NCBI GenBank assembly: GCA_949152475.1
Contig: OX424556.1
Span: 52,844,451-52,908,450 of the forward strand
DNA length: 64,000 bases
Direction: 5' to 3'
From: Terebella lapidaria
Taxonomy: Eukaryota; Annelida; Polychaeta; Terebellida; Terebellidae
The notes beneath the pieces were generated by a model. The model had not been told where the DNA came from. It searched no databases and saw only the letters and a program-made list of their open reading frames with translations. The position numbers and the translations under genes are program-made. This document shows, piece after piece, positions 19,655 through 50,515 of this stretch (positions are counted from its first letter, which is position 1; every line of letters begins with the position of its first letter).

Positions 19655-22600
19655 TTTGTCTGAAAGTTACGTATCCTTTAAAGGCGCAGCACTGATATTG
19701 CCTCAGTCAGAATGTCTGCGAACAGTAACCAAGGGAACCAATGTCGGTGAGTTTGTACACTATACATGCTATATGGAAGGCGTGGGGAATTGCTTTCTCT
19801 CATCATTTGTAAATTTGACTCTATATTACAGACATCCACGCCCATTATTTGTAAATTTGACTCTGTATTACAGACATCCACGCCTATTATTTGTAAATTT
19901 GACTCTGTATTCCAGACATCCACGCCTATTATTTGTAAATTTGACTCTGTATTACAGACATCCACGCCCATCATTTTTGAATTTGACTCTGTATTACAGA
20001 CATCCACGCCCATCATTTGTAAATTTGACTCTGTATTACAGACATCCACGCCCATCATTTGTAAATTTGACTCTGTATTACAGACATCCACGCCCATCAT
20101 TTGTAAATTTGACTCTGTATTACAGACATCCACGCCCATTATTTGTAAATTTGACTCTGTATTACAGACATCCACGCCCATTATTTGTAAATTTGACTCT
20201 GTATTACAGACATCCACGCCCATTATTTGTAAATTTGACTCTGTATTACAGACATCCACGCCCATTATTTGTAAATTTGACTCTGTATTACAGACATCCA
20301 CGCTCATTATTTGTAAATTTGACTCTGTATTACAGACATCCACGCCCATTATTTGTAAATTTGACTCTGTATTACAGACATCCACGCCCATTATTTGTAA
20401 ATTTGACTCTGTATTACAGACATCCACGCTCATTATTTGTAAATTTGACTCTGTATTACAGACATCCACGCCCATCATTTGTAAATTTGACTTTGTATTA
20501 CAGACATCCACGCCCATCATTTGTAAATTTGACTTTGTATTACAGACATCCACGCCCATCATTTGTAAATTTGACTTTGTATTTCACACACCCACGCCCA
20601 TCATTTGTAAATTTGACTTTGTATTACAGACATCCACGCCCATTATTTGTAAATTTGACTCTGTATTACAGACATACACGCCCATCATTTGTAAATTTGA
20701 CTCTGTATTACAGACATCCACGCCCATCATTTGTAAATTTGACTCTGTATTGCAGACATCCACGCCCATCAATTGTAAATTTGACTCTGTATTACAGACA
20801 TCCACGCCCATTATTTGTAAATTTGACTCTGTATTACAGACAGCCACGCCCATCATTTGTAAATTTGACTCTGTATTACAGACATCCACGCCCATCATTT
20901 GTAAATTTGACTTTGTATTACAGACATCCACGCCCATCATTTGTAAATTTGACTCTGTATTACAGACATCCACGCCCATCATTTGTAAATTTGACTTTGT
21001 ATTACACACATCCACGCCCATCATTTGTAAATTTGACTCTGTATAACAGACATCCACGCCCATCATTTGTAAATATGACTCTGTATTACAGACATCCATG
21101 CCCATCATTTGTAAATTTGACTCTGTATTACAGACATCCACGCCCATCATTTGTAAATTTGACTCTGTATTACAGACATCCACGCCCATCATTTGTAAAT
21201 TTGACTTTGTATTACAGACAGCCACGCCCATCATTTGTAAATTTGATTTTGTATTACAGACATCCACGCCCGTCATTTGTAAATTTGACTCTGTATTACA
21301 GACATCCACGCCCATCATTTGTAAATTTGACTCTGTATTACAGACATCCATGCCCATCATTTGTAAATTTGACTCTGTATTACAGACATCCATGCCCATC
21401 ATTTGTAAATTTGACTCTGTATTACAGACATCCACGCCCATTATTTGTAAATTTGAGTTTGTATTACACACATCCACGCCCATTATTTGTAAATTTGACT
21501 CTGTATTACAGACATCCACGCCCATCAATTGTAAATTTGACTCTGTATTACAGACATCCACGCCCATCAATTGTAAATTTGACTCTGTATTACAGACATC
21601 CACGCCCATCATTTGTTAATTTGACTTCGTATTACAGACATCCACGCCCATCTCCAGTCGATGTTCTGTCTGCTGCGCCCTCAGGACACAATCAAAATGG
21701 TCAGTTTTCATGGCACTGAGCGTGTATGTGAGCAACGGGTGAATGTGAATGGCATTACATATAGGATGAGAGTTTGATGTCAATTCACGATGACTTACTC
21801 ACCTGTGATGGTTATACCGATTGCAATGGTGACAGGCAATCAAACTGGACAGTGTGGAGCAGGCTTGGGTGCGTTACATGGCGGTTGTCACGACTACGGG
21901 TGTACAGGACACAGAGGAAAGCGTGATTGTTGGTGTAGACATCAGCGACAGTGGCGCAACAATTGGTTTGGTACTGCCTGTGTGGGCCGACACGTCAGTC
22001 AGACTCAATGGAGATGGGTATGCAACCATATCTTACTCAACACCTACAGTGTTGCTTGCTCAAACAGTGATGCGTCTGATGTTCATAGCGTTCATGGTCT
22101 TCTTTTTTGCAGAGGATTCCACATCACCTCAGATCATGTTCAGTACATCTTCAAACCGGTGTCTGTGCAGGCAATGTGGTGAGACCTTGTAACAGGGATA
22201 CTATCTGACACTGTCTGTTATAGCAGTGATACTGACTGACACTGTCTGTTGTAACAGTGATACTGACTGACTCTGTCTGTTGTAGCAGTGATACTGACTG
22301 ACACTGTCTGTTGTAAGAGTGATACTGATTGACACTGTTGTCGCAGTGATACTGACTGACACTGCTTGTTGTAGCAGTGATACTGACTGACACTGTCTGT
22401 TGTAACAGTGATACTGTCTGACACTGTCTGTTGTCGCAGTGATACTGACTGACACTGCTTGTTGTAGCAGTGATACTGACTGACACTGTTTGTTGTAGCA
22501 GTGATACTGTCTGACACTGTCTGTTGTTGCAGTGATACTGACTGACTCTGTATGTTGTAGCACTGATACTGACTGACACTGTCTGTTGTAACAGTGATAC

Positions 22601-25600
22601 TGACTGACAATGTCTGTTGTAACAGTGATACTGAAAGACAGTCTGTTGTTGCACTGATACTGACTGACACTGTCTGTTGTAGCAGTGATACTGACTGACA
22701 CTGTCTGTTGTAACAGTGATACTGACTGACTCTGTATGTTGTAGCACTGATACTGACTGACTCTGTCTGTTGTAACAGTGATACTGAAAGACAGTCTGTT
22801 GTTGCACTGATACTGACTGACACTGTCTGTTGTACCAGTGATACTGTCTGACACTGTCTGTTGTAACAGTGATACTGAAAGACAGTCTGTTGTTGCACTG
22901 ATACTGACTGACACTGTCTGTTGTAGCACTGATACTGACTGACACTGTTGTAGCAGTGATACTGACTGACACTGTCTGTTGTAACAGTGATACTGACTGA
23001 CACTCTGTTGTAGCAGTGATACTGACTGACACTGTCTGTTGTAACAGTGATACTGACTGACACTGTTGTAGCAGTGATACTGACTGACACTGTCTGTTGT
23101 AACAGTGATGCTGACTGACACTGTTGTAGCAGTGATACTGACTGACACTGTCTGTTGTAACAGTAATACTGACTGACACTGTCTGTTGTAGCACTGATAC
23201 TGACTGACACTGTTGTAGCAGTGATACTAACTGACACTGTCTGTTGTAACAGTAATACTGACTGACACTGTCTGTTGTAACAGTGATACTGACTGACACT
23301 GTCTGTTGTAACAGTGATACTGACTGACACTGTTGTAGCAGTGATACTGACTGACACTGTTGTAGCAGTGATACTGACTGACACTGTTGTAGCAGTGATA
23401 CTGACTGACACTATCTGTTGTAGCGGTGATACTGACTGACACTGTCTGTTGTAGCAGTGATACTGACTGACACTGTCCATTGTAGCAGTGATACTGACTG
23501 ACACTGTCCGTTGTAGCAGTGATACTGACTGACACTGTTGTAGCAGTGATACTGACTGACACTGTCTGTTGTAACAGTGATACTGACTGACTCTGTCTGT
23601 TGTAACAGTGATACTGACTGACTCTGTCCAATGTAACAGTGATACCGACTGACACTGCTTGTTGTAACAGTGATACTGATTGACACTGTCTGTTGTTGCA
23701 GTGATACTGACTGACACTCTGTTGTAGCAGTGATACTGACTGACACTGTCTGTTGTAACAGTGATACTGACTGACACTGTTGTAGCAGTGATACTGACTG
23801 ACACTGTTGTAGCAGTGATACTGACTGACACTGTCTGTTGTAACAGTGATACTGACTGACTCTGTCTGTTGTAACAGTGATACTGACTGACTCTGTCCAA
23901 TGTAACAGTGATACCGACTGACACTGCTTGTTGTAACAGTGATACTGATTGACACTGTCTGTTGTAGCAGTGATACTGACACTGTCTGTTGTAGCAGTGA
24001 TACTGACTGACACTGTCTGTTGTAACAGTGATACTGACTGACACTGTCCAATGTAACAGTGATACCGACTGACACTGCTTGTTGTAGCAGTGATACTGAC
24101 TGACACTGTCTGTTGTAACAGTGATACTGACTGACACTGTCTGTTGTAGCACTGATACTGACTGACACTGTTGTAGCAGTGATACTTACTGACACTGTTG
24201 TAGCAGTGATACTGACTGACACTGTCTGTTGTAACAGTGATACTGACTGACACTGTTGTAGCAGTGATACTGACTGACACTGTCTGTTGTAACAGTGATA
24301 CTGACTGACACTGTTGTAGCAGTGATACTGACTGACACTGTCTGTTGTAACAGTGATACTGACTGACACTGTCTGTTGTAACAGTGATAATGAAAGACAG
24401 TCTGTTGTTGCACTGATACTGACTGACACTGTCTGTTGTAACAGTGATACTGACTGACTCTGTCTGTTGTAACAGTGATACTGACTGACTCTGTCCAATG
24501 TAACAGTGATACCGACTGACACTGCTTGTTGTAACAGTGATACTGATTGACACTGTCTGTTGTAGCAGTGATACTGACACTGTCTGTTGTAGCAGTGATA
24601 CTGACTGACACTGTCTGTTGTAACAGTGATACTGACTGACTCTGTCCAATGTAACAGTGATACCGACTGACACTGCTTGTTGTAACAGTGATACTGATTG
24701 ACACTGTCTGTTGTCGCAGTGATACTGACTGACACTGTCTGTTGTAACAGTGATACTGACTGACACTGTTGTAGCAGTGATACTGTATTACAGACTGATT
24801 GACACTGTCTGTTGTAGCAGTGATACTGACACTGTCTGTTGTAGCAGTGATACTGACTGACACTGTCTGTTGTAACAGTGATACTGACTGACACTGTCCA
24901 ATGTAACAGTGATACCGACTGACACTGCTTGTTGTAGCAGTGATACTGACTGACACTGTCTGTAGTAACAGTGATACTGACTGACACTGTCTGTTGTAGC
25001 ACTGATACTGACTGACACTGTTGTAGCAGTGATACTTACTGACACTCTGTTGTAGCAGTGATACTGACTGACACTGTCTGTTGTAACAGTGATACTGACT
25101 GACACTGTTGTAGCAGTGATACTGACTGACACTGTCTGTTGTAACAGTGATACTGACTGACACTGTTGTAGCAGTGATACTGACTGACACTGTCTGTTGT
25201 AACAGTGATACTGACTGACACTGTCTGTTGTAACAGTGCTAATGAAAGACAGTCTGTTGTTGCACTGATACTGACTGACACTGTCTGTTGTAACAGTGAT
25301 ACTGTCTGACACTGTCTGTTGTCGCAGTGATACTGACTGACACTGCTTGTTGTAGCAGTGATACTGACTGACACTGTCTGTTGTAACAGTGATACTGACT
25401 GACACTGTCTGTTGTAGCACTGATACTGACTGACACTGTTGTAGCAGTGATACTGACTGACACTGATGTAGCAGTGATACTGACTGACACTGTCTGTTGT
25501 AACAGTGATACTGACTGACACTCTGTTGTAGCAGTGATACTGACTGACACTGTCTGTTGTAACAGTGATACTGACTGACACTGTTGTAGCAGTGATACTG

Positions 25601-28600
25601 ACTGACACTGTCTGTTGTAACAGTGATGCTGACTGACACTGTTGTAGCAGTGATACTGACTGACACTGTCTGTTGTAACAGTAATACTGACTGACACTGT
25701 CTGTTGTAGCACTGATACTGACTGACACTGTTGTAGCAGTGGTACTAACTGACACTGTCTGTTGTAACAGTAATACTGACTGACACTCTCTGTTGTAACA
25801 GTGATACTGACTGACACTGTCTGTTGTAGCAATGATACTGACTGACACTGTTGTAGCAGTGATACTGACTGACACTGTTGTAGCAGTGATACTGACTGAC
25901 ACTATCTGTTGTAGCGGTGATACTGACTGACACTGTCTGTTGTAGCAGTGATACTGACTGACACTGTCCATTGTAGCAGTGATACTGACTGACACTGTCC
26001 GTTGTAGCAGTGATACTGACTGACACTGTTGTAGCAGTGATACTGACTGACACTGTCTGTTGTAACAGTGATACTGACTGACTCTGTCTGTTGTAACAGT
26101 GATACTGACTGACTCTGTCCAATGTAACAGTGATACCGACTGACACTGCTTGTTGTAACAGTGATACTGATTGACACTGTCTGTTGTCGCAGTGATACTG
26201 ACTGACACTCTGTTGTAGCAGTGATACTGACTGACACTGTCTGTTGTAACAGTGATACTGACTGACACTGTTGTAGCAGTGATACTGACTGACACTGTTG
26301 TAGCAGTGATACTGACTGACACTGTCTGTTGTAACAGTGATACTGACTGACTCTGTCTGTTGTAACAGTGATACTGACTGACTCTGTCCAATGTAACAGT
26401 GATACCGACTGACACTGCTTGTTGTAACAGTGATACTGATTGACACTGTCTGTTGTAGCAGTGATACTGACACTGTCTGTTGTAGCAGTGATACTGACTG
26501 ACACTGTCTGTTGTAACAGTGATACTGACTGACACTGTCCAATGTAACAGTGATACCGACTGACACTGCTTGTTGTAACAGTGATACTGATTGACACTGT
26601 CTGTTGTCGCAGTGATACTGACTGACACTGTCTGTTGTAACAGTGATACTGACTGACTCTGTCCGATGTAACAGTGATGCCGACTGACACTGCTCGTTGT
26701 AACAGTGATACTGACTGACACTGTCTGTTGTCGCAGTGATACTGACTGACACTGTCTGTTGTAGCAGTGATACTGACTGACACTGTTTGTTGTAGCAGTG
26801 ATACTGTCTGACACTGTCTGTTGTCGCAGTGATACTGACTGACACTGTCTGTTGTAGCAGTGATACTGACTGACCCTGTCTGTTGTAGCAGTGATACTGA
26901 CTGACACTGTTGTAACAGTGATACTGACTGACCCTGATGTAGCAGTGATACTAACTGACACTGTCTGTTGTAACAGTGATACTGACTGACACTGTCTGTT
27001 GTAACAGTGATACTGACTGACTCTGTCCGATGTAACAGTGATGCCGACTGACACTGCTCGTTGTAACAGTGATACTGACTGACACTGTCTGTTGTCGCAG
27101 TGATACTGACTGACACTGTCTGTTGTAGCAGTGATACTGACTGACACTGTCTGTTGTAGCAGTTATACTGACTGACACTGTCTGTTGTAACAGTGATACT
27201 GACTGACTCTGTCCGATGTAACAGTGATGCCGACTGACACTGCTCGTTGTAACAGTGATACTGACTGACACTGTCTGTTGTCGCAGTGATACTGACTGAC
27301 ACTGTCTGTTGTAGCAGTGATACTGACTGACACTGTCTGTTGTAGCAGTGATACTGACTGACACTGTCTGTTGTAACAGTGATACTGACTGACACTGTCT
27401 GTTGTAACAGTGATACTGTCTGACTCTGTATGTTGCAGGTCGGCATGGCAAAGCCTCAATAAACTGCTGGACACTGCCTCCCACTGTGGCTACTATGCCC
27501 ATGGACTGACACACACCTGGGTCCAGTTTTATGCTGTCACTTCCTCTCAGCCTCAAATCAACCTGTGGAACCTGATGGAGGACTTGGAGAGTGCTCGGCC
27601 CGACAACATCAGGTCTGACCGCCAAACTTCTGATTTGTGTGTGGCTGTTTGTTGCAGCAAGAAGTTTGCAGTAGTTTGTTTGGTTGCAGGAACACAGAAC
27701 AGGAGGACCTGGAGCTGATTGTCAGGAATAAACTGCGAGAAGTTATGATGAAAGTCGACTTGGAGGAAGTCACCAGTAAACTGGTCAGTAGCCAAGTCTT
27801 CTCGTTAGTCTTATCCTTAACCAAGTCCTCTGAGTGGAATGTCTGTGTAATCTGTGCATGTTTGTGTGTAGTATTTTTGTGTACTCAATTCCACCTCAAT
27901 ATCCATACTTCCGGTCCCATGAGATGACGTAGTGCATCGGATGGTCAATTAGCAGTGTGATCCGGATGTACGCAGTCGGGAAGAATTTATCACGCGTAAC
28001 AAACAGTCGAAAAACGTTGTCAATTTCGGGGATAAGAAGAATAAATACGGACTAGAATCTTCATGACATCACAGAGACTCTTTTGGACATAAATTGGAAC
28101 GCTCTACAAACTTTTTCTAGGAGTTTTCTGAAGGGAAAAAATTTCCAAGGAACAATTCATGGCAGAAACGGCGAAAATGCGCCTCCGTGAGGGAACACAA
28201 AAAACCCCTGCCAAGTGCGCACCGGGTGCAAAACACACACCAAAAGCTGGGTCAGCTGGTGTAGACGATTTAGAAAGGGAAATATTCGTCGTTGCGGGTG
28301 CGGCTACTGACTCAGAGCCAAACCTCGCCGGGGGGAAAAACACCCCGATTGCCGCCATTACTGGGGGGCGCCCCCAGCCAAGCCACGGCCAAATCTCGCA
28401 CCAGGTCCTGGGCGAGAGTTCAGGCGAGACTTTCGGCAACAAAATGGCCGCGCCCATGGAACCACCGGTCTGGGCCAAAGCTTTGCTCGAAACCCAACAA
28501 AACTTCATGCTGCAGTTTGCAGAGACACTTTCATCTTCACATAAACGATCCGCACATGACATGTCGGACGATGAACAATCCGAAGACGAATCTCTCGATG

Positions 28601-31600
28601 AACGAACGGCCCAAGTTGCTAAAAAACGATGCACTGACGGGCCTATCTTTTCTAGTGCTACCGCTACTAGCGGTGATTGCCTAGACGATCTGGACATGGT
28701 CTCTGTCAACGATCAGTCTCCAGCAGACGAGGAACAGGATGAAGTTTTGGATGAATTGCAACAGTTCTTTGGGAGTGCTGATACAGTGGGCCCAGACCTT
28801 GAAGAAAAATTGGCAACAGTTGTCAACACAAGTCTCAGAGTGCAGGTGCCTGACCAGAAAATTACAGAGATATGCCAGGCGGTCCACAGGCCGAAGAATT
28901 GCCCTGGTCTGACAACACCAAAGGTGAACCCGGAAATTTGGGACAAAATTCAGCGGCATACACGAAGCAGAGACCTGGGTATGCAGAAGCTACAAAATTT
29001 CCAGGGAAAGGCAATGACACCATTGCTTACTCTCATCGAACAGCTTCGGGAAGCAGCCAAAACAAGGACGCCAACAGAACCGGGGGCTGTGCGTGGCTGG
29101 CTGAAGCTGGCATCTGATGCATTCCGTATCATGGCGTTCGCGTTCGTCAAGACGACAAACCAGAGGAAGGACTTCATAAAGCCTGACCTCAACTCAACCT
29201 ACCGGCAAATCTGCTCGGACCAACAGGCGGTCACGGACTCGCTGTTTGGCGATGACCTCCCACAAAAGATAAAAGAGATCAACTCCGCTCAACGGCTTGG
29301 GTCACAGGTGCAGGGCAACGCTCGTGACAAATACAGGTTTCAGCGCCATCATCAACATGGAAGACAGTTCCAGCACAAAGGGAAAAGCCGGTACGCTGGG
29401 GGAAAGAAGGATTTTTTGGCGTATCGGCCGAGCCCAAAATTCCGTCCAGCAAAGGACAAAAAGTGAACTCCGGCTCGGCTGCTCAAAGGATGACTGAAAA
29501 TGAAGTGAGTGTTGGTTATCTTGATGGTAACACTGATGTGAAAAACACACCACAAAACTTTGTAGCAGGAAAGATCAGTGGCCACTGCATACAATGGCAG
29601 GACGTAACTCAGGACCCAGTAATTCTGGGCGTCGTTCGAGGCATATCATTAGATTTGCCTCCTGACCTAAACCAGCATTGGATTCCAACGCCAATCCAGT
29701 TCAATGATACTGAAAAAAGGGTTATGCAAAATGCTATTGATGACTTGACCGCTAAGGGTGTGATTCATCAAGTTGAACCATGTCAAGGCCAATATCTGTC
29801 GAACATTTTTATGAGACTAAAAAAAGACGGATCATGTCGGTTGATTTTGAACTTGAGGAAACTAAATGAATCTTTGCCAAAACAACATTTCAAAATGAGC
29901 ACTCTTAAAAGTGCCCTCCAACTAATCACTCCAGGTTGCTGGTTTGCATCTATTGACTTAAAAGATGCATATTTTTCTGTGAATATTATGGAACATCACA
30001 GAAAATTCTTTCGTTTCTTGTGGAACGATCAGCTCTTTGAGTTCACAGCTATGCCTAATGGGCTTAGTCCTGCTCCCAGATTTTTCACAAAAATTATGAC
30101 CCCAGTGTTTGCCTCCTTGCATCGTATTGGACATCAGAATGTGTCATACATTGATGACAGTCTTTTGCTTTCTGACACGCCAGAAGAATGTAGGAACAAT
30201 GTTCATGACACTGTCACCCTGCTGGATAAACTTGGGTTCACAGTTCACCCAAGCAAATCTGTGTTCATTCCAACCCAACAAATAGTTTTTCTGGGGTTCA
30301 AACTCAATTCAGTACAGATGCCAGTCAGACTGACCAATGAAAAGTCATCCAAAATCATTGCAGCTTGTAAGGATATTCTAAAGCCTAGGCTGATAGCCAT
30401 TCAGGCAGTGGCAGAATTGTTGGGGAAATTAGTTGCGGCCCAACCAGCAGTCCCTTGTGGGCCCCTATATTACAAAACTTTGGAAAACGAGAAAAACGCT
30501 GCACTTAAACAAAACAAAGGAGAATTTTCAGCACTCATGCAAATTAGCAGTGACTCAAAATCCCATATTCAGTGGTGGATTCAGCATTTGGCTGAATCAG
30601 AAGCTACTCTGAGGGATAGACCAGTGGATATTCGTATCAATAGTGACAGCTCCCTCTCTGGTTGGGGTGGGGTGTTCCAACCACTTGGACTTCAAACTGG
30701 AGGTTTTTGGAGCACCGAAGAACAACAGCATCACATAAATTTCCTTGAACTTTTGGCGGGGTTCCTCACCCTCCAATCCCTGTGTTCGGATAAACAAAAC
30801 ATTCACATTCGGCTCATGATGGATAATCAGACAGCTGTGTCATACATCAATAAAATGGGGGGCCGCATGGAAAAATTGAATGCTTTGGCACGACAAATTT
30901 GGCTTTGGTGTCTGCATAGAAACATTTGGCTTTCTGCAGCACATGTACCCGGACAGCAAAATGAATTGGCTGATAAACTGTCACGTAAACTCCATGATGA
31001 TATGGAGTGGAAACTAAACCCTGGTGTCTTCCAAAAACTTGTCGATCTTTTTGGGGAACTCAAATTGGATTTATTTGCTACAAATTGGATTTATTTGCTA
31101 CAAGCTTATGTAGCATGGCGTCCTGATCCATATGCAGTGGCCATTGATGCTTTCTCGGTTGAATGGAATACTAATGGGCTGTATATCTTTCCACCTTTTA
31201 GCCTACTCGGACGCATTCTTCAAAAACTCCAGCACGACCGAGGGTGAGCAGTGGTGATTTTTCCAGTTTGGGACACACAGGTCTGGTTTCCCAAACTTCT
31301 TTGGATGCTGGTCGCAGATCCAGTTTTGTTGCCAGACACCAACAACATCCTGATGTTGACACACAGACCTCACGTCAAGCACCGCCTCCACAAAACGCTC
31401 AGACTCGCTGCGGGGCTTTTATCCGGGCATCTCCAGTGCTGCGCGGATTATCAGCGCACGTTGTGGACATCATCATCTCGTCCTGGAGGGAAACCACGCA
31501 AAAACAATATGGAACATACCTCAGACAGTGGGCAGCATTTTGTGATCAAAGACAAGCTAATCCGTTTCAATCAAGTATTGATGTAGTTTTGGAATTTCTT

Positions 31601-33858
31601 GGACACCTGTTTCAAAAAGGACTGGGATATAGCGCCCTGAATACCGCCAGGGGAGCGCTGTCTGTGATTTCCGAGACAGCAGTGGGGAGCCACACACTGG
31701 TTACTCGTTTCATGAAAGGGGCATTCAACCGACGGCCAACACTCCCAAAATATCAAGTCACATGGGATGTATCTGTGGTATTAGATTACCTCAAGACTCT
31801 GGAACCATTGAGTAAATTGTCATTGAAAATGTTGCCATGTAAAGTGGTTATGTTGTTGGCCCTTCTGACAGGACAAAGAGGCCAGACCATTCATGTGATG
31901 AACATTCAAGATGTAATCATCGGTCCAACCAAAGTTGACATTCACATTACCTCACTCTTAAAACAAACCAGACTGGCAAAACAGTTAGAACCAATCACTA
32001 TACCTGCTTACTCAAAGGATCCCAGATTGTGTATAGTTCGGTGTTTGAACATTTATATATCCAAGACAAAGAAACTTAGGAAGGGGGACAAGTTGTTTAT
32101 AAGTACTATTGCCCCTTTCCACAGCATAAGTCGAGACACAGTGTCTAGGTGGTTGAGGCTGGTTCTGCAAAAAGCTGGTATTGATACTACTGTGTTTGAA
32201 CCACATAGCACTCATATGGCGTCCACTTCCAAGGCTAAAAGCTTACATGTTCCTGTGAGTACTATACTCAAAGCTGGAGGTTGGGCGTCAGAGTGTTGTT
32301 TTAGGAGGTTTTACGACAAACCCATAAGACAACAGACAAATGAATTTGCTCTTGCTTTGTTGCAATCTGCTTAGATGTACATGTACTAGGGTTAACATTC
32401 CTCACATATATGTTATGTGGTTGTGCTCTGTATTATACTCTAGAGTTTATCAATAAATTGTGTGGAAAATTATCTTTCTATTAATATACGTTGTAAAATA
32501 ACTGACATAGATACATGGGCTCTAAATTTCTCATGGGACCGGAAGTATGGATATTGAGGTGGAATTCAAAGATTAAACGAGACTTACCTGGAAGTTGAAG
32601 TTTGATCGGGATTCCACCGATATATCTAAATACTTTCGGTCACGTGCCCACCCTTTTAACCCACCCTCGGCACATGCATGTATCTATGTCACTCTCAAGA
32701 CTGACGATCCGATGCACTACGTCATCTCACGTGACCGAAAGTATTTAGATATATCGGTGGAATCCCGATCAAACTTCAACTTCCAGGTAAGTCTCGTTTA
32801 ATCTTTGAATTAAATCTGTTTATGACATATTGGTGACATATATTCTGTTAAGTACTTTGTGTATTCTGTTTGTGTGCTGAGTTTGTGTACGAAGTTTGTG
32901 TACTCTGTGTACTCGGTTTGTGTTCTAAGTTTGTGTACTCTGTGTATGTATTCTGCTTGTGTACTTTGTGTATGCTGTATGTGTACCCTGCTTGTTGAAG
33001 TTGTGTGCTAAGTTTTTGTTCTCTGTGTGTTTTGTTTGTGTACTAAGTTTATGTACTCTATGTACCTTGCTTCTGAACCCTGTTTTGAGTACTAAGTTTG
33101 TGTATTCTGTTTTTGTATTCTTTTTGAGTACTCTGTTTGTGTACTCTGTGTACCCTGTTTGTTTACTAAATTGATGTACTCTGCGTATTCTGTTTGTGTA
33201 CCTTGTTTGTGTACTAAGTTTGTGTACATGTTTGTGTATTCTATTTGTGTACTCTGTTTGTGTACTCTGTGTACCCTGTTTGTTTACCAAATTGATGTAC
33301 TCTGCGTATTCTGTTTGTGTACCTTGTTTGTGTACTAAGTTTGTGTACATGATTGGGTACTCTATATGTGTACTCTGTTTATTGACACGTGTGTCTCACT
33401 CCAGTACCATGTCTGCTCTGACAGGTTAGGACCAAGCTGGAGGAGGAGTTGGGGATGAGTCTACAGCAGCACAAACACTTTGTCGACCAGGAGATGATTG
33501 TGATTCTGCGTCAAATGGATGCTCCGTCTCAAATCTTTGACTACCTCTATCTTGGCTCTGAGTGGAATGCATCCAACCTTGATGAGCTTCAGAAAAATGG
33601 GTAAATTAGCGAATAGTATTTTATTGAGTTAATTGGCTAGGCTATCTGCCGAAGAATTCTTGTGGTTGTAAAACTCGCATCCAGCATGAAATACTGTTAT
33701 GGCGTTTGCAGAATCGGCTACATCTTGAATATGACAAGAGAGATTGACAATTTCTTCCCTGGCATCTTTCGTTACAAGAATGTAAGAGTGTATGACGTCG
33801 ATGAGTCAGACCTTCTTCGGCATTGGGAGGAAACATACAAGTTCATTAACAAGGCCAG
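19655..33858 (+). CDS. SSH: Slingshot protein phosphatase (SSH), 8 internal exons, 5' and 3' partial
   Basis: Exons: 19655-19746, 21638-21699, 21836-22017, 22113-22178, 27439-27612, 27690-27783, 33425-33600 and 33712-33858; 993 nt in phase without stops. Slingshots dephosphorylate cofilin/ADF and so promote actin turnover. Seen: LSESYVSFKGAALIL (N-terminal SSH signature), DIHAHLQSM, AWVRYMAVV, GFHI...YIFKPVSVQAMW and WNLMEDLESARPD (SSH-N region). A DEK-C-like segment follows (DLELIVRNKLREVMM...VTSKLVRTKLEEELG). The start of the dual-specificity phosphatase domain is FDYLYLGSEWNASNLDELQ and YILNMTREIDNFFPG, ending KFINKAR. The catalytic HCxxGxxR exon is not in the window. It must lie beyond 64000, because 33859 onward shows only intron-type repeats and transposons. 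Introns 1, 4 and 8 carry giant minisatellites and intron 6 a DIRS element. Identification is by recalled homology to vertebrate SSH and is strong. Confidence 0.93.
19832..21637 (+). repeat. 42-bp minisatellite of the intron 1 3' splice site, exactly 43 units
   Basis: 1806 bases = 43 x 42 with no indel. Each unit is ACATCCACGCCCATC, then ATTTGTAAATTTGACT, then CTGTATTACAG. The true exon 2 (21638) starts with the same 15 bases, ACATCCACGCCCATC, preceded by TATTACAG, so the unit is a duplicated acceptor plus the exon edge. A branch-point-like TTTGACT precedes each AG. Three AGs are changed to AC (near 20586, 21006 and 21467). Confidence 0.97.
22199..27424 (+). repeat. 27-31-bp minisatellite of acceptor-like units in intron 4, about 180 units
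   Basis: The unit is CAGTGATACTGACTGACAC followed by TGTCTGTTGTAG; a shorter form lacks TCTG. It fills nearly all of the intron between 22178 and 27439. The real acceptor of exon 5 (TCTGTATGTTGCAG|GTCGG) reads as the last modified unit, and TCTGTATGTTGTAG also occurs inside the array near 22550 and 22735. Longer blocks are repeated: 23400-24000 resembles 25900-26470. The minus strand is nearly stop-free, giving spurious SVSQYHCYN-type ORFs. Confidence 0.95.
27887..27924 (+). repeat. DIRS left inverted terminal repeat
   Basis: Starts AATTCCACCTCAATATCC and is the perfect reverse complement of 32529-32566. Confidence 0.9.
28159..29466 (+). CDS. DIRS ORF1, gag-like protein (435 aa)
   Basis: First ATG at 28159 follows a 270-base leader after the inverted repeat; stop TGA at 29464-29466. 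It is likely the structural (capsid-like) protein of the element. The N-terminal third is low-complexity, followed by acidic stretches (DDEQSEDESLDER and ADEEQDEVLDELQQFF). The C-terminal half has a helical region (WLKLASDAFRIMAFAFV...QRKDFIKPDL...SLFGDDLPQKIKEI) resembling DIRS gag as I recall it, and a basic, Gln/His-rich tail (YRFQRHHQHGRQFQHKGKSR) suited to nucleic-acid binding. No CCHC knuckle is visible. It overlaps ORF2 by a few bases. Confidence 0.8.
   Translation: MAETAKMRLREGTQKTPAKCAPGAKHTPKAGSAGVDDLEREIFVVAGAATDSEPNLAGGKNTPIAAITGGRPQPSHGQISHQVLGESSGETFGNKMAAPMEPPVWAKALLETQQNFMLQFAETLSSSHKRSAHDMSDDEQSEDESLDERTAQVAKKRCTDGPIFSSATATSGDCLDDLDMVSVNDQSPADEEQDEVLDELQQFFGSADTVGPDLEEKLATVVNTSLRVQVPDQKITEICQAVHRPKNCPGLTTPKVNPEIWDKIQRHTRSRDLGMQKLQNFQGKAMTPLLTLIEQLREAAKTRTPTEPGAVRGWLKLASDAFRIMAFAFVKTTNQRKDFIKPDLNSTYRQICSDQQAVTDSLFGDDLPQKIKEINSAQRLGSQVQGNARDKYRFQRHHQHGRQFQHKGKSRYAGGKKDFLAYRPSPKFRPAKDKK
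29490..31247 (+). CDS. DIRS ORF2, reverse transcriptase-RNase H
   Basis: The frame is open from 29463 (GTG); the first ATG is 29490. Reverse transcriptase motifs: RLILNLRKLN, ASIDLKDAYFSV (first catalytic Asp), MPNGLSPAPRFFTK, and NVSYIDDSLLL (YxDD box). RNase H motifs: DIRINSDSS (Asp), HINFLELLAG (Glu), LMMDNQTAVSYINK (Asp), and HVPGQQNELADKLSR (His/Asp). The C-terminal DLFATN...YVAWRPDP and IFPPFSLLGRIL stretch is usual after DIRS RNase H. No methyltransferase domain is seen, unlike DIRS-1 itself. A 20-bp direct tandem duplication (AATTGGATTTATTTGCTACA) lies at about 31063-31103, inside the DLFATN region, and the frame stays open. Stop TGA at 31245-31247 overlaps ORF3. Confidence 0.93.
   Translation: MTENEVSVGYLDGNTDVKNTPQNFVAGKISGHCIQWQDVTQDPVILGVVRGISLDLPPDLNQHWIPTPIQFNDTEKRVMQNAIDDLTAKGVIHQVEPCQGQYLSNIFMRLKKDGSCRLILNLRKLNESLPKQHFKMSTLKSALQLITPGCWFASIDLKDAYFSVNIMEHHRKFFRFLWNDQLFEFTAMPNGLSPAPRFFTKIMTPVFASLHRIGHQNVSYIDDSLLLSDTPEECRNNVHDTVTLLDKLGFTVHPSKSVFIPTQQIVFLGFKLNSVQMPVRLTNEKSSKIIAACKDILKPRLIAIQAVAELLGKLVAAQPAVPCGPLYYKTLENEKNAALKQNKGEFSALMQISSDSKSHIQWWIQHLAESEATLRDRPVDIRINSDSSLSGWGGVFQPLGLQTGGFWSTEEQQHHINFLELLAGFLTLQSLCSDKQNIHIRLMMDNQTAVSYINKMGGRMEKLNALARQIWLWCLHRNIWLSAAHVPGQQNELADKLSRKLHDDMEWKLNPGVFQKLVDLFGELKLDLFATNWIYLLQAYVAWRPDPYAVAIDAFSVEWNTNGLYIFPPFSLLGRILQKLQHDRG
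31244..32374 (+). CDS. DIRS ORF3, tyrosine recombinase with a substituted catalytic Arg
   Basis: The frame opens at GTG 31244, overlapping ORF2 by four bases (GTGA), so translation may be by reinitiation or frameshift. The recombinase joins the circular cDNA into the genome. Seen: N-terminal SAM-like core domain (SSWRETTQKQYGTYLRQW...FLGHLF), box I LLALLTGQRGQTIHV (Arg present), box II PHSTHMASTSKA, GGWASECCFRRFY (Trp and nucleophile Tyr). In DIRS recombinases box II is normally HSTR; here the Arg is His (CAT at about 32212). One transition from CGT would explain it, so this copy is probably unable to integrate by itself. Otherwise full length, no stops. Confidence 0.9.
   Translation: MSSGDFSSLGHTGLVSQTSLDAGRRSSFVARHQQHPDVDTQTSRQAPPPQNAQTRCGAFIRASPVLRGLSAHVVDIIISSWRETTQKQYGTYLRQWAAFCDQRQANPFQSSIDVVLEFLGHLFQKGLGYSALNTARGALSVISETAVGSHTLVTRFMKGAFNRRPTLPKYQVTWDVSVVLDYLKTLEPLSKLSLKMLPCKVVMLLALLTGQRGQTIHVMNIQDVIIGPTKVDIHITSLLKQTRLAKQLEPITIPAYSKDPRLCIVRCLNIYISKTKKLRKGDKLFISTIAPFHSISRDTVSRWLRLVLQKAGIDTTVFEPHSTHMASTSKAKSLHVPVSTILKAGGWASECCFRRFYDKPIRQQTNEFALALLQSA
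32529..32566 (-). repeat. DIRS right inverted terminal repeat
   Basis: Ends GATATTGAGGTGGAATT-type on the plus strand and is the perfect reverse complement of the left repeat over 38 bp. It overlaps the neighbouring palindrome by four bases. Confidence 0.9.
32563..32811. repeat. Perfect 84-bp inverted repeat with 81-bp loop next to the DIRS right end
   Basis: Arms 32563-32646 and 32728-32811 are exact reverse complements (start AATTCAAAGATTAAACGAG). Loop bases 32703-32729 are the reverse complement, with one mismatch, of 27920-27946 just inside the DIRS left end (TGAGATGACGTAGTGCATCGG). It may be the DIRS internal complementary region displaced outward, or the ends of a related DIRS element. 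The right arm reads CTTCCAGGTAAGT, a strong donor-like site; the left arm carries the same sequence in reverse. Confidence 0.85.
32850..33390 (+). repeat. TGTGTACTCTG-type degenerate minisatellite at the 3' end of slingshot intron 6
   Basis: Irregular repeats of TTTGTGTACTCTGTGTACC with variants (AAGTTTGTGTAC, ACCTTGCTT). A block near 33140-33235 is repeated at 33258-33350. The same motif (TTTTTGTGTACTC) lies just left of the DIRS insertion at 27874-27886, so the DIRS element landed in this repeat. Confidence 0.8.
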
Positions 33859-33874
33859 GTAAAATATACTAGTT

Positions 33875-36800
33875 CACAACAAAGCCAGGTGGAACACATG
33901 AGTCCACAACAAAGCGAGGTAAGACGCATGAGTTCACAACAAAGCGAGGTAAAACACCTGAGTCCACAACAAAGCCAGGTAAAACACATGAGTCCACAAC
34001 AAAGCGAGGTAAAACACCTGAGTCCACAACAAAGCGAGGTAAAACGCATGAGTTCACAACAAAGCCAGGTAAAAGGCATGAGTTCACAACAAAGCCAGGT
34101 AAAACACATGTGTCCACAACAAAGCGAGGTAAAATGCATGAGTTCACAACAAAGCCAGGTAAAAGGCATGAGTTCAAAACAAAGCCAGGTAAAACACATG
34201 AGTCCACAACAAAGCGAGGTAAAACGCATGAGTTCACAACAAAGCCAGGTAAAAGGCATGAGTTCACAACAAAGCCAGGTAAAACACATGTATCCACAAC
34301 AAAGCCAGGTAAAAAACATGAGTCCACAACAAAGCGAGGTAAAGCGAGTTCACAACAAAGCCAGATAAAAAGGCATGAGTTCACAACAAAGCCAGGTAAA
34401 ACACATGTATCCACAACAAAACCAGGTAAAACATGAGTCCACAACAAAGCCAGGTAAAACATGAGTCCACAACAAAGCCAGGTAAAACACATGTGTCAAC
34501 AACAAAGCCAGGTAAAACACATGTATCCACAACAAAGCCAGGTAAAACATGAGTCCACAACAAAGCCAGGTAAAACATGAGTCCACAACAAAGCCAGGTA
34601 AAACACATGAGTTCACAACAAAGCCAGGTAAAAGGCATGAGTTCACAACAAAGCCAGGTAAAACACATGAGTTCACAACAAAGCCAGGTAAAAGGCATGA
34701 GTTCACAACAAAGCCAGGTAAAAGGCATGAGTCCACAACAAAGCCAGGTAAAAGGCATGAGTTCACAACAAAGCCAGGTAAAACACATGAGTTCACAACA
34801 AAGCCAGGTAAAAGGCATGAGTCCACAACAAAGCCAGGTAAAACACATGAGTTCACAACAAAGCCAGGTAAAAGGCATGAGTCCACAACAAAGCCAGGTA
34901 AAACACATGAGTTCACAACAAAGCCAGGTAAGACACATGAGTCCACAACAAAGCGAGGTAAAAGGCATGAGTTCACAACAAAGCCAGGTAAAAGGCATGA
35001 GTTCACAACAAAGCCAGGTAAAACACATGAGTTCACAACAAAGCCAGGTAAAAGGCATGAGTCCACAACAAAGCCAGGTAAAACACATGAGTTCACAACA
35101 AAGCGAGGTAAAACACATGACTCCACAACAAAGCCAGGTAAAGCGCATGAGTTCACAACAAAGCCAGGTAAAAGGCATGAGTTCACAACAAAGCCAGGTT
35201 AAACACATGAGTTCACAACAAAGCCAGGTAAAACACATGTATCCACAACAAAGCCAGGTAAAACACATGTATCCACAACAAAGCCAGGTAAAACATGAGT
35301 CCACAACAAAGCCAGGTAAAACACATGAGTTCACAACAAAGCCAGGTAAAAGGCATGAGTCCACAACAAAGCCAGGTAAAACGCATGAGTTCACAACAAA
35401 GCCAGGTAAAAAGGCATGAGTTCACAACAGAGCCAGGTAAAACACATATATCCACAACAAAGCCAGGTAAAACACATGTGTCCACAACAAAACCAGGTAA
35501 AACACATGTGTCCACAACAAAGCCAGGTAAAACATGAGTCCACAACAAAGCCAGGTAAAACACATGATTTCACAACAAAGCCAGGTAAAACACATGTATC
35601 CACAACAAAGCCAGGTAAAACACATGAGTCCACAACAAAGCGAGGTAAAACGCATGAGTTCACAACAAAGCCAGGTAAAAGGCATGAGTTCACAACAAAG
35701 CCAGGTGAAACACATGAGTTCACAACAAAGCCAGGTAAAAGGCATGAGTCCACAACAAAGCCAGGTAAAACACATGAGTTCACAACAAAGCGAGGTAAGA
35801 TATGAGTCCACAACGAAGCGAGGTAAAACGCATGAGTTCGCAACAAAGCCAGGTAAAAGGCATGAGTTCACAACAAAGCGAGGTAAAACACATGAGTTCA
35901 CAACAAAGCGAGGTAAAACGCATGAGTTCACAACAAAGCCAGGTAAAAGGCATGAGTTCACAACAAAGCCAGGTAAAACACATGTATCCACAACAAAACC
36001 AGGTAAAACATGAATCCACAACAAAGCCAGGTAAAACATGAGTCCACAACAAAGCCAGGTAAAACACATGAGTCCACAACAAAGCGAGGTAAAACACCTG
36101 AGTCCACAACAAAGCCAGGTAAAACACATGTATCCACAACAAAACCAGGTAAAACATGAATCCACAACAAAGCCAGGTAAAACATGAGTCCACAACAAAG
36201 CCAGGTAAAACACATGTGTCCACAACAAAGCCAGGTAAAACACATGTATCCACAACAAAGCCAGGTAAAACATGAGTCCACAGCAAAGCCAGGTAAAACA
36301 CATGAGTTCACAACAAAGCCAGGTAAAAGGCTTGAGTTCACAACAAAGCCAGGTAAAACATGAGTTCACAACAAAGCCAGGTAAAAGGCATGAGTCCACA
36401 ACAAAGCCAGGTAAAACACATGAGTTCACAACAAAGCGAGGTGAAACACATGACTCCACAACAAAGCGAGGTAAAGCGCATGAGTTCACAACAAAGCCAG
36501 GTAAAAGGCATGAGTCCACAACAAAGCCAGGTAAAAGGCATGAGTTCACAACAAAGCCAGGTAAAACACATGAGTTCACAACAAAGCGACCTAAAACACA
36601 TGAATTCACAACAAAGCAAGGTAAAACACATGCGTCCACAACAAAGCCAGGTAAAAGGCATGAGTTCACAACAAAACCAGGTAAAACACATGAGTTCACA
36701 ACAAAGCGACCTAAAACACATGAATTCACAACAAAGCAAGGTAAAACACATGCGTCCACAACAAAGCCAGGTAAAAGGCATGAGTTCACAACAAAGCCAG

Positions 36801-39800
36801 GTAAAACACATGAGTTCACAACAAAGCGACCTAAAACACATGAATTCACAACAAAGCAAGGTAAAACACATGCGTCCACAACAAAGCCAGGTAAAAGGCA
36901 TGAGTTCACAACAAAACCAGGTAAAAGGCATGAGTCCACAACAAAGCCAGATAAAACACATGTATCCATAACAAAACCAGGTAAAACACATGAGTTCACA
37001 ACAAAGCCAGGTAAAACGCATGAGTTCACAACAAAGCCAGGTAAAAGGCATGAGTCCACAACAAAGCCAGGTAAAACGCATGAGTTCACAACAAAGCCAG
37101 GTAAAACACATGAGTTCACAACAAAGCGAGGTAAAACACATGACTCCACAACAAAGCCAGGTAAAACGCATGAGTTCACAACAAAGCCAGGTAAAACACA
37201 TGAGTCCACAACAAAGCCAGGTAAAACATGAGTCCACAACAAAGCCAGGTAAAACATATGAGTTCACAACAAAGCTAGGTAAAACACATGTGTCCACAAC
37301 AAAGCCAGGTAAAACACATGTATCCACAACAAAACCAGGTAAAACATGAGTCCACAACAAAGCCAGGTAAAACATGAGTTCACAACAAAGCCAGGTAAAA
37401 CGCATGAGTCCAGAACAAAGCCAGGTAAAACATGAGTCCACAACAAAGCCAGGTAAAACACATGAGTTCACAACAAAGCGAGGTAAAACACATGAGTTCA
37501 CAACAAAGCCAGGTAAAACACATGAGTCCACAACAAAGCCAGGTAAAACACATGTATCCACAACAAAACCAGGTAAAACATGAATCCACAACAAAGCCAG
37601 GTAAAAGGCATGAGTTCACAACAAAGCCAGGTAAAACATGAGTCCACAACAAAGCCAAGTAAAACACATGAGTTCACAACAAAGCCAAGTAAAACACATG
37701 AGTTCACAACAAAGCGAGGTAAAACACATGAGTCCACAACAAAGCCAGGTAAAACACATGTATCCACAACAAAACCAGGTAAAACATGAATCCACAACAA
37801 AGCCAGGTAAAAGGCATGAGTTCACAACAAAGCCAGGTAAAACATGAGTTCACAACAAAGCCAGGTAAAACACATGAGTCCACAACAAAGCGAGGTAAAA
37901 GGCATGAGTCCACAACAAAGCGAGGTAAAAGGCATGAGTTCACAACAAAGCCAGGTAAAACACATGAGTCCACAACAAAGCGAGGTAAAAGGCATGAGTC
38001 CACAACAAAGCGAGGTAAAACGCATGAGTTCACAACAAAGCCAGGTAAAAGGCATGAGTTCACAACAAAGCCAGGTAAAACACATGTATCCACAACAAAA
38101 CCAGGTAAAACATGAATCCACAACAAAGCCAGGTAAAAGGCATGAGTTCACAACAAAGCCAGGTAAAACATGAGTCCACAACAAAGCCAAGTAAAACACA
38201 TGAGTTCACAACAAAACCAGGTAAAAGGCATGAGTCCACAACAAAGCCAGATAAAACACATGTATCCATAACAAAACCAGGTAAAACACATGAGTCCACA
38301 ACAAAGCCAGGTAAAACACAGGAGTTCACAACAAAGCCAGGTAAAACATGAGTCCACAACAAAGCCAGGTGAAAGGCATGAGTTCACAACAAAGCGAGGT
38401 AAAACACATGAGTTCACAACAAAGCCAGGTATAAAACATGAGTGCACAACAAAGCCAGGTAAAGCACATGTATCCACAACAAAGCCAGGTAAAACACATG
38501 AGTTCACAACAAAGCCAGGTAAAACACATGAGTTCACAACAAAGCGAGGTAAAACGCATGAGTTCACAACAAAGCCAGGTAAAAGGCATGAGTTCACAAC
38601 AAAGCCAGGTAAAACACATGTGTCCACAACAAAGCGAGGTAAAATGCATGAGTTCTCAACAAAGCCAGGTAAAAGGCATGAGTTCTCAACAAAGCCAGGT
38701 AAAAGGCATGAGTTCAAAACAAAGCCAGGTAAAACACATGAGTTCACAACAAAGCCAGGTAAAACACATGAGTTCACAACAAAGCCAGGTAAAACACATG
38801 AGTTCTCAACAAAGCCAGGTAAAAGGCATGAGTTCTCAACAAAGCCAGGTAAAAGGCATGAGTTCAAAACAAAGCCAGGTAAAACACATGAGTTCACAAC
38901 AAAGCCAGGTAAAACACATGAGTTCACAACAAAGCCAGGTGAAACACATGAGTTCACAACAAAGCCAGGTGAAACACATGTATCCACAACAAAGCCAGGT
39001 AAAACACATGAGTTCACAACAAAGCCAGGTAAAACACATGAGTTCACAACAAAGCGAGGTAAAACACATGTATCCACAACAAAGCCAGGTAAAACACATG
39101 AGTTCACAACAAAGCGAGGTAAAACGCATGAGTTCACAACAAAGCCAGGTAAAAGGCATGAGTTCACAACAAAGCCAGGTAAAACACATGTGTCCACAAC
39201 AAAGCGAGGTAAAATGCATGAGTTCACAACAAAGCCAGGTAAAAGGCATGAGTTCAAAACAAAGCCAGGTAAAACACATGAGTTCACAACAAAGCCAGGT
39301 AAAACACATGTATCCACAACAAAGCCAGGTAAAACACATGAGTTCACAACAAAGCCAGGTAAAACACATGAGTTCACAACAAAGCCAGGTAAAACACATG
39401 AGTTCACAACAAAGCCAGGTAAAACACATGAGTTCACAACAAAGCCAGGTAAAACACATGTATCCACAACAAAGCCAGGTAAAACACATGAGTTCACAAC
39501 AAAGCCAGGTAAAACACATGAGTTCACAACAAAGCCAGGTAAAACACATGAGTTCACAACAAAGCCAGGTAAAACACATGAGTTCACAACAAAGCCAGGT
39601 AAAACACATGTATCCACAACAAAGCCAGGTAAAACACATGAGTTCACAACAAAGCCAGGTAAAACACATGAATCCACAACAAAACCAGGTTAAACACATG
39701 AGTTCACAACAAAGCGAGGTAAAACGCATGAGTTCACAACATAGCAGGTAAAGCGCATGAGTTCACAACAAAGCCAGGTACAACACATGAGTTCACAACA

Positions 39801-39945
39801 AAGCCAGGTAAAAGGCATGAGTCCACAACAAAGCCAGGTAAAACACATGTATCCACAACAAAGCCAGGTAAAAGGCATGAGTCCACAACAAAGCCAGGTA
39901 AAACACATGAGTCCACATCAAAGCCAGGTAAATCAGACTGGTTAA
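33875..39945 (+). repeat. 30-bp minisatellite of the exon 8 5' splice site, about 200 units
   Basis: The unit is TTCACAACAAAGCCAG followed by GTAAAACACATGAG. Exon 8 ends TTCATTAACAAGGCCAG|GTAAAATATACTAG, so the unit copies the last 16-17 exonic bases plus the donor. Most units keep CAG|GTAAAA or GAG|GTAAAA. Some have lost it (AAGCGACCTAAAA, AAGCCAAGTAAAA, AAGCCAGATAAAA). A 120-bp four-unit block is tandemly triplicated at about 36570-36930. Short 26-28-bp units (AAAACATGAG) are interspersed. Both strands carry long meaningless ORFs because 30 is a multiple of three. Confidence 0.97.
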
Positions 39946-40247
39946 TTTACAAAGCCATGTAAAACAGACAAGTTGATCAACAAAGCCAGGTAAAACCAGA
40001 TAGGTTTATCAATAAAAACCATTTAAAACAGACAGAACAATAAACGAAGCCAGGTAAAACAGACAGGCTAATCAGCATAGCCAGGTGATACAGACAGAAT
40101 AATCAACAAAGGTAGGTAGAACAGACAGGCTAATCAGCAACGCCAGGTAAAACAGACAGGTTAATAAACACAACCAGGTAAAACAAACAGGTACATCAAC
40201 AAAGCCGAGTAACACTGGACATGTTCATGAATAAAGCTAGGTAAAAA
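39946..40247 (+). repeat. Decayed edge of the 30-bp array
   Basis: Units of about 33 bp, such as CAGGTTAATCAACAAAGCCAG followed by GTAAAACAGA, are irregular and diverged. They resemble the exon 8 end (TTAACAAGGCCAG) more than the central units do, as expected for an old array edge not recently homogenised. The same decayed units continue on the other side of the inserted transposon at 58613-58727. Confidence 0.85.
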
Positions 40248-40623: not shown

Positions 40624-40701
40624 CGTAGTTATTTGGAAAACACTACTCGAGTAATAGACCTATATCTCGTTATATACATGCACAAATAGGTCAAGTTCAA
40701 G

Positions 40702-43700
40702 ATGCTTGAGGAAGCAGTAAAGTCCGTTTGTCGGGTTCTGAATCTACCGTATGACCTCAAACAGAAACAAATGGAGGTTGTAAAGACACTGGTCGACGGC
40801 AAAGATTGTTTTTGTGTGATGCCCACAGGTTAGAGTGATAAGTGAACAAAAATTGCAATAACCCTGAGATCCAAATTCAAAATTGATTTGTATAGGAACA
40901 TCATATGCTGAAATTAATCTAATTCACACTAAATCTAACTGTTCCGATAATTTCATCATTCCTTGTATGTGTAAACCTCTTTTCAACATGTATTAGCAAA
41001 CCTCTTTTCAACACCTACATGTATTAGCAAAAATATCAGTCGATTGGCATACTGTATTCATTGTTCTGCACACACAATTGTACACCAGGAGTTCATTGGT
41101 TCAAAATAAAATTTTGTGCTACAGGGTATGGAAAGACCGCACCAATGATGTTGATGCCACTAATTATGGATGCCACTGATTATCGGCCCTTTGGGCCGAT
41201 AAGCTATTATCATGGTTTTTCGTCCGCCGTCCGTTGGCCGTCGTCCGTCCGGGTCTGTAACTTTTTTTTGGCATGATGAATTTCCCCATAATTTTGTCAG
41301 AACATACCTTAGGCCAATATCTAAAAACGTTTTTTTCATTTTTTTGATTGAATCGTTTTTGCCGATTTGGATTTTGGACTTTGGTGGCCATTTTCTCAAA
41401 AACTGTCTGATTAGTTTTGAGATTTTTGTTTCAAAACATTCCTCTCATGTACCTCTATGACATGTATAAGTTTCGTTGCCCTTGAATCGCCGGTCTGCGT
41501 GTGGCGGCCATTTTGATTTTTTGACAGGTCGGCGAAAAATTTTTTTTTTGTCCCAAATCAAGTCACTATTCGTTTTGAGCCATTTCCAGCAAAAAAAAAT
41601 TTTTTTGGACTTAGAAAATTTCACCCAATTTTTCCTTTATAATGGGAGCTATGCAGAGTAATCTCATAGAACACTTCAAGATAGAGACTAAGTATTGGCA
41701 CATTCAAATGGGAAATCATATATTGCGGTTTGAGTGGTGACCTTGAATTTGACCTTCAATGACCTTGAAAGGTCAAAATGACCTTTTTTGTCGAAAAAAC
41801 AATGAATTTTGCCTTTGGTGGTCATTTTCTCAAAATCTATTCAGACAGTTTTTCTCAAAATCATGTATAAGATTCTCCTTATGTACCTTTGTGATGTGTA
41901 TACAGTGGTCCCCCTCAGATAAGACCTACCCTTTTGCCACAAAATTAAGGTCCTATCTAAGGGGATGTCTTATTAGAGGGGTTCATTTACATGTTAAAGT
42001 CATTCTAGCGCCACAAGAAAAAGTCTTTACAGAGGGGGAAGTCTTTCTTGAGGGGGGTCTTATCTGAGGGGGACCACTGTAAATTTTGTAGCCTTTGAAA
42101 TGACAGTCTGCATGTGGCGGCCATTTTGTTTTTTTGACGAGTCAGCCAAAAAAAATTTTTTTGTCCCAAATCGAGTCACTATTGGTTTTGAGCCATTCCA
42201 GCAAAAAAAAAAAAAATTTTTTTTTTCGGCCATTGAAAATTGTTTCGGACTTAGAAAATTTCACCCCTGGTTTCCTTCATAATGGGAGCTATGCAGAGTA
42301 ATCTCATAGAACACTTCAAGATAGAGCCTAAGTATTGGCACATTCAAATGGGAAATCATATATTGCGGTTTGAGTGGTGACCTTGAATTTGACCTTCAAT
42401 GACCTTGAAAGGTCAAAACGACCTTTTTTGTCGATAAAACGATGAATTTTGCTTTTGGTGGTCATTTTATCGAAATCTATTCAGACAGTTTTCCTCAAAA
42501 TCATGTATAAGATTATCCTTATGTACGTTTGTGATGTGTATAAGTTTTGTTGCCTTTGAATCGACTGTCTGTGGAAATTTGTCATTAACGAAAAAAATCT
42601 TTCAAGATGTAACTTGATTTCGTATTATAGTCCATACAGAAAATGTGTTTCTATCAACATTTACGAAGATGTTTTAACATATTGATTTTAATATCAGTGT
42701 AACAATTTATATGTATTCAGTGTTCTACGCAATTCACATGATTGCCGGTAAGCTACAGCACCCTTGGTGCTATGTTTTTTCAGTAAGGCTAAATAGCCGG
42801 GGAGCACAGGTTGTGTGTGTTTATGATGTGCATTTGTAATATTTGGTAACATCACAAACAGTAATACAAAATTATTTATTATATTCGCTGACAATTCCTT
42901 GACAATAAGATCGACCCATGGCATGTGTAAATTACAGCAATGGGGTACCTGCTGATGCCATGTGCTTTTGGGGCTCTGAAACAGTCTATTATGCCTGAAA
43001 ATTACAAAAAACGTCATGTCTATTGTCTGCATTATGCAAAAACAAACATAACAAAATTTTAATGCTACTTTATTACGTTTTTGTATTATATGGCACAATA
43101 GACTGTTTCTATGGTTTATCTATACCCGAATTACATGGTGGCGATCCTGGTGGCAAACAGGAACCTCATTCACACGGAATGATAATTCCTGACAAATAAG
43201 GTATGAAGGAATATTATTACGATATTACACAGCTATACAAGAAGCACCACATCTGCTTAGTAATAAGCCCACTGAGGTCCCTGATGCGCGACCAGAAAGC
43301 TGCGTGGGACGAAAAACTTAACTGTAAAATAATCCTGAAGCTAGCTGAAATGAGTGACGAAGATATCAGCGGTATGTAGGCCTACTGTTCCAGGTATCAA
43401 TGTCAAACGAGTTTAAATACAAACTGAATGTGCTCTTGAGCAAGCCAAAAGATCACTCAAGTGAACAAGTGGTATAAATTGATATGGATCTGAATTTCGT
43501 CAGGTACAAGTCAAGAAATTTTGATCACTAGTACAGTAGATCCTGTGTTAAAGACCACCTGGTTTGAGAGACCACCCTGTGTTTTAAGACCATTTCACTT
43601 GGTCCCAAGTGGCCTTTTATCATGTAAATGGACCTGTAATGAGAGACCACCTGTCATTTAAGACCACCTTTTTGGGGTCCCTTGGGTGGTCTTAAAACAC

Positions 43701-50497: not shown

Positions 50498-50515
50498 TAG
50501 TCCTTTTAGAGGACT

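Follow-up and report, generated by a model that had tools for sequence, protein, structure and literature searches.

Large minisatellites at exon-intron junctions of a slingshot gene in the annelid Terebella lapidaria

Minisatellite-like tandem duplications lying over an exon-intron boundary have been described from amphioxus under the name of mirages (PMC3087553; what is said here of published systems follows the available portions of the cited texts). In the amphioxus globin genes BflGb6 and BflGb9, mirages are found at acceptor and donor sites, and reverse transcription polymerase chain reaction suggested that splicing is normal; for the mirage of Adh3, somatic instability was reported (PMC3087553). 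Similar repeats are carried by PGBD5 and troponin C of the lancelet (PMC3902484). Here, we describe a window of 64,000 nucleotides (C2:52844451-52908450; GenBank contig OX424556.1 of assembly GCA_949152475.1) from the annelid Terebella lapidaria, in which three introns of a slingshot phosphatase gene hold large minisatellites. Two of these three arrays span exon-intron junctions and include exon letters. A preliminary description of this DNA stated that no named system of the kind was known, a claim that is superseded by the mirages already named in amphioxus (PMC3087553, PMC3902484).

Arrays were called with Tandem Repeats Finder, and the large minisatellites first noted in introns 1, 4 and 8 were recovered, with 44 copies of 42 bp, 174 copies of 31 bp and 207 copies of 30 bp, all on the plus strand. 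The unit of the intron 1 array (19801..21652; 42 bp, 44.1 copies) consists of 27 intron letters, including the acceptor AG, and 15 exon letters, the latter being the first 15 letters of exon 2 (21638..21699, plus strand). The unit of the intron 8 array (33840..39996; 30 bp, 206.8 copies) consists of the exon 8 edge (~19 letters, changed) and the donor, and by eye decayed copies extend to ~40240. Intron 4 (22179-27438) is made up of eight bases after the donor and then the array (22187..27435; 31 bp, ranging from 27 to 31, 174.1 copies) up to the acceptor, and by eye the array reaches the real acceptor CAG in phase; its unit is acceptor-like and contains no exon letters. A fourth array, degenerate and with a 12-13 bp unit, is placed late in intron 6 (32856..33380, plus strand), towards its 3' end; it stops ~44 bases short of the exon 7 acceptor and spans no junction.

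Five array units were compared by local alignment with 16 windows of 40 bases placed on junctions (80 comparisons), using 5,000 random 40-base stretches of the window as the null. The intron 1 unit matched the exon 2 acceptor with a score of 62 (null maximum 28), the first 15 exon letters being exact and the exon half alone having p <1 in 5,000. The intron 8 unit matched the exon 8 donor with a score of 48 (null maximum 38), and here the exon half alone had p=0.0008. These scores bear out the description of the two arrays as repeating the acceptor plus the exon 2 edge and the exon 8 edge plus the donor, respectively. The intron 4 unit was matched to the exon 5 acceptor with a score of 26 and p=0.0022, the match being confined to its intron side; this is weak in 80 comparisons, and an unrelated pair, the upstream-gene unit and the exon 7 acceptor, obtained p=0.0014 in the same test; the unit is acceptor-like, as first described, and its array abuts both donor and acceptor. 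Because the match is restricted to the intron side, the intron 4 array was not filed as a mirage. As is characteristic of mirages, the units of the intron 1 and intron 8 arrays take letters from the intron side as well as the exon side of the junction next to them, and splice signals are present in many copies: AG is retained in 41/44 (intron 1) and 157/174 (intron 4) aligned units, and GT in 201/207 (intron 8), two partial units per array being left aside. The earlier heading of three introns with minisatellites built from their own splice sites thus holds for introns 1 and 8, whose units carry exon letters, but is too broad for intron 4.

The gene was identified as slingshot from eight joined exons encoding 331 amino acids, with PH_SSH1-like and DEK_C domains and a partial DSPc domain below its Pfam cut-off. 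The product matched SSH2 (2nt2) in the PDB, and its closest named homologue is from Capitella teleta (61%). Exon numbering is that of the preliminary description, all exons are on the plus strand and the exon edges are GT/AG. Exon 1 (19656..19746; LSESYVSFKGAALILP...) was assigned by Pfam and PDB matches, and a search upstream of it for an N-terminal exon, with one motif used as query, found none. It is followed by exon 2, exon 3 (21836..22017), exon 4 (22113..22178), exon 5 (27439..27612), exon 6 (27690..27783), exon 7 (33425..33600) and exon 8 (33712..33858), where the phosphatase domain starts; the end of exon 7 was set at 33600 by reading frame, one base beyond the first computed end. Introns 2, 3, 5 and 7 are 77-136 bp long. 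Intron 8 covers 30,682 bp, from 33859 to the end of the window (64000) and on to 64540 in window numbering. A search of the window for the catalytic motif gave nothing, and a truncated gene was considered and rejected, further exons being located just past the window: the catalytic exon 9 (L009:541-603, plus strand; KSKSKVLVHCKMGVSRSAST) joins exon 8 in frame and contributes HCKMGVSRSAST.

Two introns of the gene hold further insertions. Intron 6 harbours a retroelement (27870-32800) with a reverse transcriptase (PF00078) and a tyrosine-recombinase-like open reading frame (ORF; PF00589, below cut-off), and by eye one sequence recurs in inverted orientation close to the ends of the element; we take it to resemble the DIRS-type elements. 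The best named relative of its reverse transcriptase ORF is from Mytilus (49%). Intron 8 contains, at 40700-55800, nested RecQ-helicase-like plus-strand exons and minus-strand ORFs, which by eye have the look of a large mobile element.

The assembly searched comprises 761.6 Mb in 438 contigs. In genome DNA searches, which pass over very common words, all listed matches of the three units fell within the slingshot locus (21/21, 90/90 and 74/74), and the arrays have therefore arisen in place. An origin from a dispersed satellite was rejected on the same confinement of the unit matches to the locus. Introner-like elements are dispersed, their unit recurring across numerous genes; no such spread was found for the three units in these searches, and Rfam gave no match at gathering scores. 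Likeness of the units to the consensus is ~97%, 92% and 92% in introns 1, 4 and 8, with no clear gradient along the array, and 22 distinct unit sequences were counted in 44, 55 in 174 and 69 in 207 units, respectively. In intron 4, a block of ~0.7 kb is repeated 2491 bp downstream at 99.5-100%, with a longest exact run of 389 bp, indicating exchange or duplication of several units at a time. The intron 1 unit is bounded at both ends by a common CATC (by eye), which would be in keeping with slippage at a short stretch of homology. Tandem arrays as long as 6 kb pose problems for assembly, and one amphioxus mirage was misassembled in a draft genome (PMC3087553), which could be taken to suggest that the slingshot arrays are likewise an artefact of inflated copy number or misplacement. 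However, the units vary to the extent given above, the window lies within a 61.9-Mb contig and the ends of the arrays coincide with real gene junctions, and we regard an assembly artefact as very unlikely.

Based on these observations, we estimate a probability of about 0.7 that the slingshot arrays are mirage-type minisatellites which originated by ordinary tandem duplication across junctions, were tolerated and then grew. One short tandem duplication would by chance have spanned the acceptor of intron 1 or the donor of intron 8, and in intron 4 the initial duplication would have fallen inside a short intron. Splicing would have kept joining the exon-proximal sites, that is, the acceptor of the last copy and the donor of the first, so that the duplications could be tolerated and all additional copies would turn into intron. 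Growth to 1.9-6.2 kb may then have taken place via unequal exchange or slippage. We infer that the arrays are neutral and that this was the mutational route.

The reading frame is informative with respect to which sites can be used. If decoys were used, a stop would follow at all of the pattern-fitting sites (38/38 in intron 1, 148/148 in intron 4 and 190/190 in intron 8), while the exon-proximal choice leaves the frame intact; production of the full protein therefore needs exon-proximal choice. Since real and decoy sites are nearly identical in sequence in introns 1 and 8, position must determine the site used there. The preliminary description had also considered a spliceosome-decoy function. 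Such arrays might have been selected, either to act as decoys on which the spliceosome is held up or for long, slow introns regulating slingshot output, and the near-perfect splice-like copies kept in all three arrays (the AG and GT counts given above) are what this would lead one to expect; homogenisation by itself, however, keeps copies alike. Conservation of the splice dinucleotide was ranked among all dinucleotides of the unit. The ranks were 27/41 in intron 1, 17/30 in intron 4 and 6/29 in intron 8, the last in the upper part of the list without leading it, and in none of the three arrays were the splice letters kept clearly better than the rest of the unit. With splice dinucleotides that are not specially conserved and tested decoys that would give a premature stop and truncate the protein, there is no sign of a decoy function, and the same kind of array is found in unrelated genes (see below). 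Selection of the arrays thus appears very unlikely.

Exon matches to myosin and kinesin were used to survey other genes, giving 85 adjacent exon pairs in the rows kept. Of the gaps between them, 77/85 were <600 bases and eight were at least 1.5 kb. Sequence was examined in 16 short gaps and in five of the eight that were at least 1.5 kb; these five had been chosen by length, ahead of any view of their sequence. None of the 16 short gaps examined had an array at a junction, and one of them (L035) holds small interior arrays. Junction-spanning arrays were identified in 2/5 long introns examined. In the myosin intron (C6:386900-391700), 26 copies of a 43-bp unit at the donor (L041:3391-4539) enter the exon edge CATCTCAG/GTCAGAGT (slash at the junction), and the unit scored 40 in the 40-base junction test, where the null maximum was 28. 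In the kinesin intron (L044; C9:677350-679100), 12 copies of a 67-bp unit lie at the acceptor; the unit, ...TTCTCAG/TTATGGCCA, includes nine exon letters, and its last copy is the real acceptor of the AYGQTGTGKT exon (by eye, with no null run). No array was found in the long introns L040 and L043, and long intron L042 holds repeats of 121-132 bp of a dispersed type. The earlier statement that arrays arose at splice junctions three times in slingshot accordingly stands for at least two of them, and extends to these myosin and kinesin genes, the third slingshot array only abutting its junctions.

Twenty random stretches of 10 kb were sampled from the genome. Minisatellites with units of 10-100 bp covered 23,189 of 200,000 bases, or 13,189 of 190,000 when one all-satellite stretch is removed, and arrays of this kind are therefore common in this genome. 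The 20 stretches contained 13 arrays. Ten flanking ORFs were selected by eye, and of these one could be recognised: a zinc-finger exon in L012, with an array that ends ~70 bases short of the acceptor. In another random stretch, an array beside a minus-strand open frame (L030:2451-5270; 64 copies of 44 bp), with a candidate donor at its edge, is included in no count.

The recurrence of junction arrays in unrelated myosin and kinesin genes, together with a slingshot gene that has two such arrays and a third abutting both ends of its intron, could point to a splice-linked mutational process (transcription, R-loops or splicing-coupled breakage) that makes junction duplications commoner than placement predicts. 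Four of nine intron arrays span a junction, against 2.5 expected under a placement null with intron lengths set to bin midpoints (P=0.20), or 4.1 expected when the four short slingshot intron lengths are used (P=0.66). For the four unselected arrays, two of them spanning, the corresponding values are P=0.34 and 0.69, and an earlier version of the null on six arrays, four of them spanning, gave P=0.10 and 0.44. The counts are small, and slingshot's three arrays entered this comparison because the preliminary description had singled them out. As introns are mostly short, a duplication of 30-67 bp will often touch a junction, and with 4/9 not above the placement null, there is as yet no evidence of a splice-linked mechanism; the special slippage process at junctions that had been proposed is not needed. 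Interior arrays also exist (slingshot intron 6, the upstream gene, the L012 zinc-finger intron and L035). We therefore consider a splice-linked process unlikely.

Several points weigh against ordinary tandem duplication across junctions as the source of the arrays. The intron 4 unit, with its weak acceptor match and no exon letters, does not speak for a duplication of a junction. In the myosin array, the top-scoring alignment does not keep the splice register, and the exon half on its own is not significant (p=0.11), the in-register match GTCATSTCAG/GTCAGAGT being found by eye. The survey covers the letters of 21/85 gaps, and the exon-proximal choice of splice sites in the cell is presumed from genomic sequence. 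As a wider and more tentative suggestion, to which we would give slightly less than an even chance, junction-spanning minisatellites may be a widespread and ongoing route from small to kilobase introns in this annelid lineage, with splicing regularly choosing the exon-proximal site among tens to hundreds of near-identical copies, at donors and acceptors alike.

Other repeats were observed in the window and the assembly. Upstream of slingshot, a 37-38 bp unit is common to 4705-4976, which appears to be intronic sequence of the upstream gene, and to a 4.7-kb array beyond that gene (6749-11417). The ORF of the upstream gene is open at 2002-3507 and has no Pfam match; it is adjoined by an array of 51 bp (17 codons) at 1-1913, possibly a coding repeat. 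Dispersed repeats with periods of ~121, 132, 134 and 147 bp are found at 13216-17820, 59244-59770 and 62013-63716, as well as in L009, L010 and L042. In small contigs, e.g., C150, C186 and C414, the matches to myosin and kinesin form a single long stretch that contains numerous in-frame TAA/TAG codons, as is seen where an organism reads these codons, and contig C417 carries a second COX1; other organisms are possibly present in the assembly. The COX1 on contig C438, translated with table 5, has its best matches among the 120 rows listed in annelids, with Pilargis wolfi at 89% followed by Phyllodocida, Saccocirridae and Namalycastis at 85-88%, and molluscs reach ~84%. By these matches, a place among annelids is safe and one within Phyllodocida only probable, and amphioxus was rejected as the source of the DNA.

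Several published systems resemble these arrays in part. In human segmental-duplication genes, internal tandem repeats have units of 30 bp on average and, as here, some lie at exon-intron boundaries; they average four copies, alter splicing and form novel introns, and copy numbers in slingshot are far higher (PMC2812944). In intron gain by tandem duplication (the Rogers AGGT model and the potato RdRp case), duplication of a boundary likewise supplies splice signals, but the slingshot copies sit inside introns (PMC4974935). The earthworm metallothionein gene also has large arrays of the minisatellite class inside an annelid intron, and the available portion of that account makes no mention of splice junctions in them. 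Full-text literature searches, with most subscription journals outside their scope, found no annelid mirage in print. The closest likeness is to the amphioxus mirages, with boundary-spanning tandem copies at acceptors or donors and AG or GT in many of them (PMC3087553, PMC3902484). In contrast to these, the host here is an annelid and not a cephalochordate, 44-207 copies are present compared with 6 and 3 in two BflGb6 haplotypes (PMC3087553), and two junction-spanning arrays and one abutting array occur within a single gene. For amphioxus mirages, normal splicing has been suggested and length instability reported, whereas the slingshot arrays are known from the genome sequence of one haplotype. 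A little-studied curiosity of amphioxus is thereby extended beyond its first phylum and to arrays of greater size, providing natural test genes for splice-site choice among up to ~200 near-identical sites in a row, and, with such arrays in 2/5 examined of the eight long myosin/kinesin gaps, a concrete and checkable route for intron lengthening. Compared with the mirages of amphioxus, the phylum, the size of the arrays and their recurrence in several genes are new.

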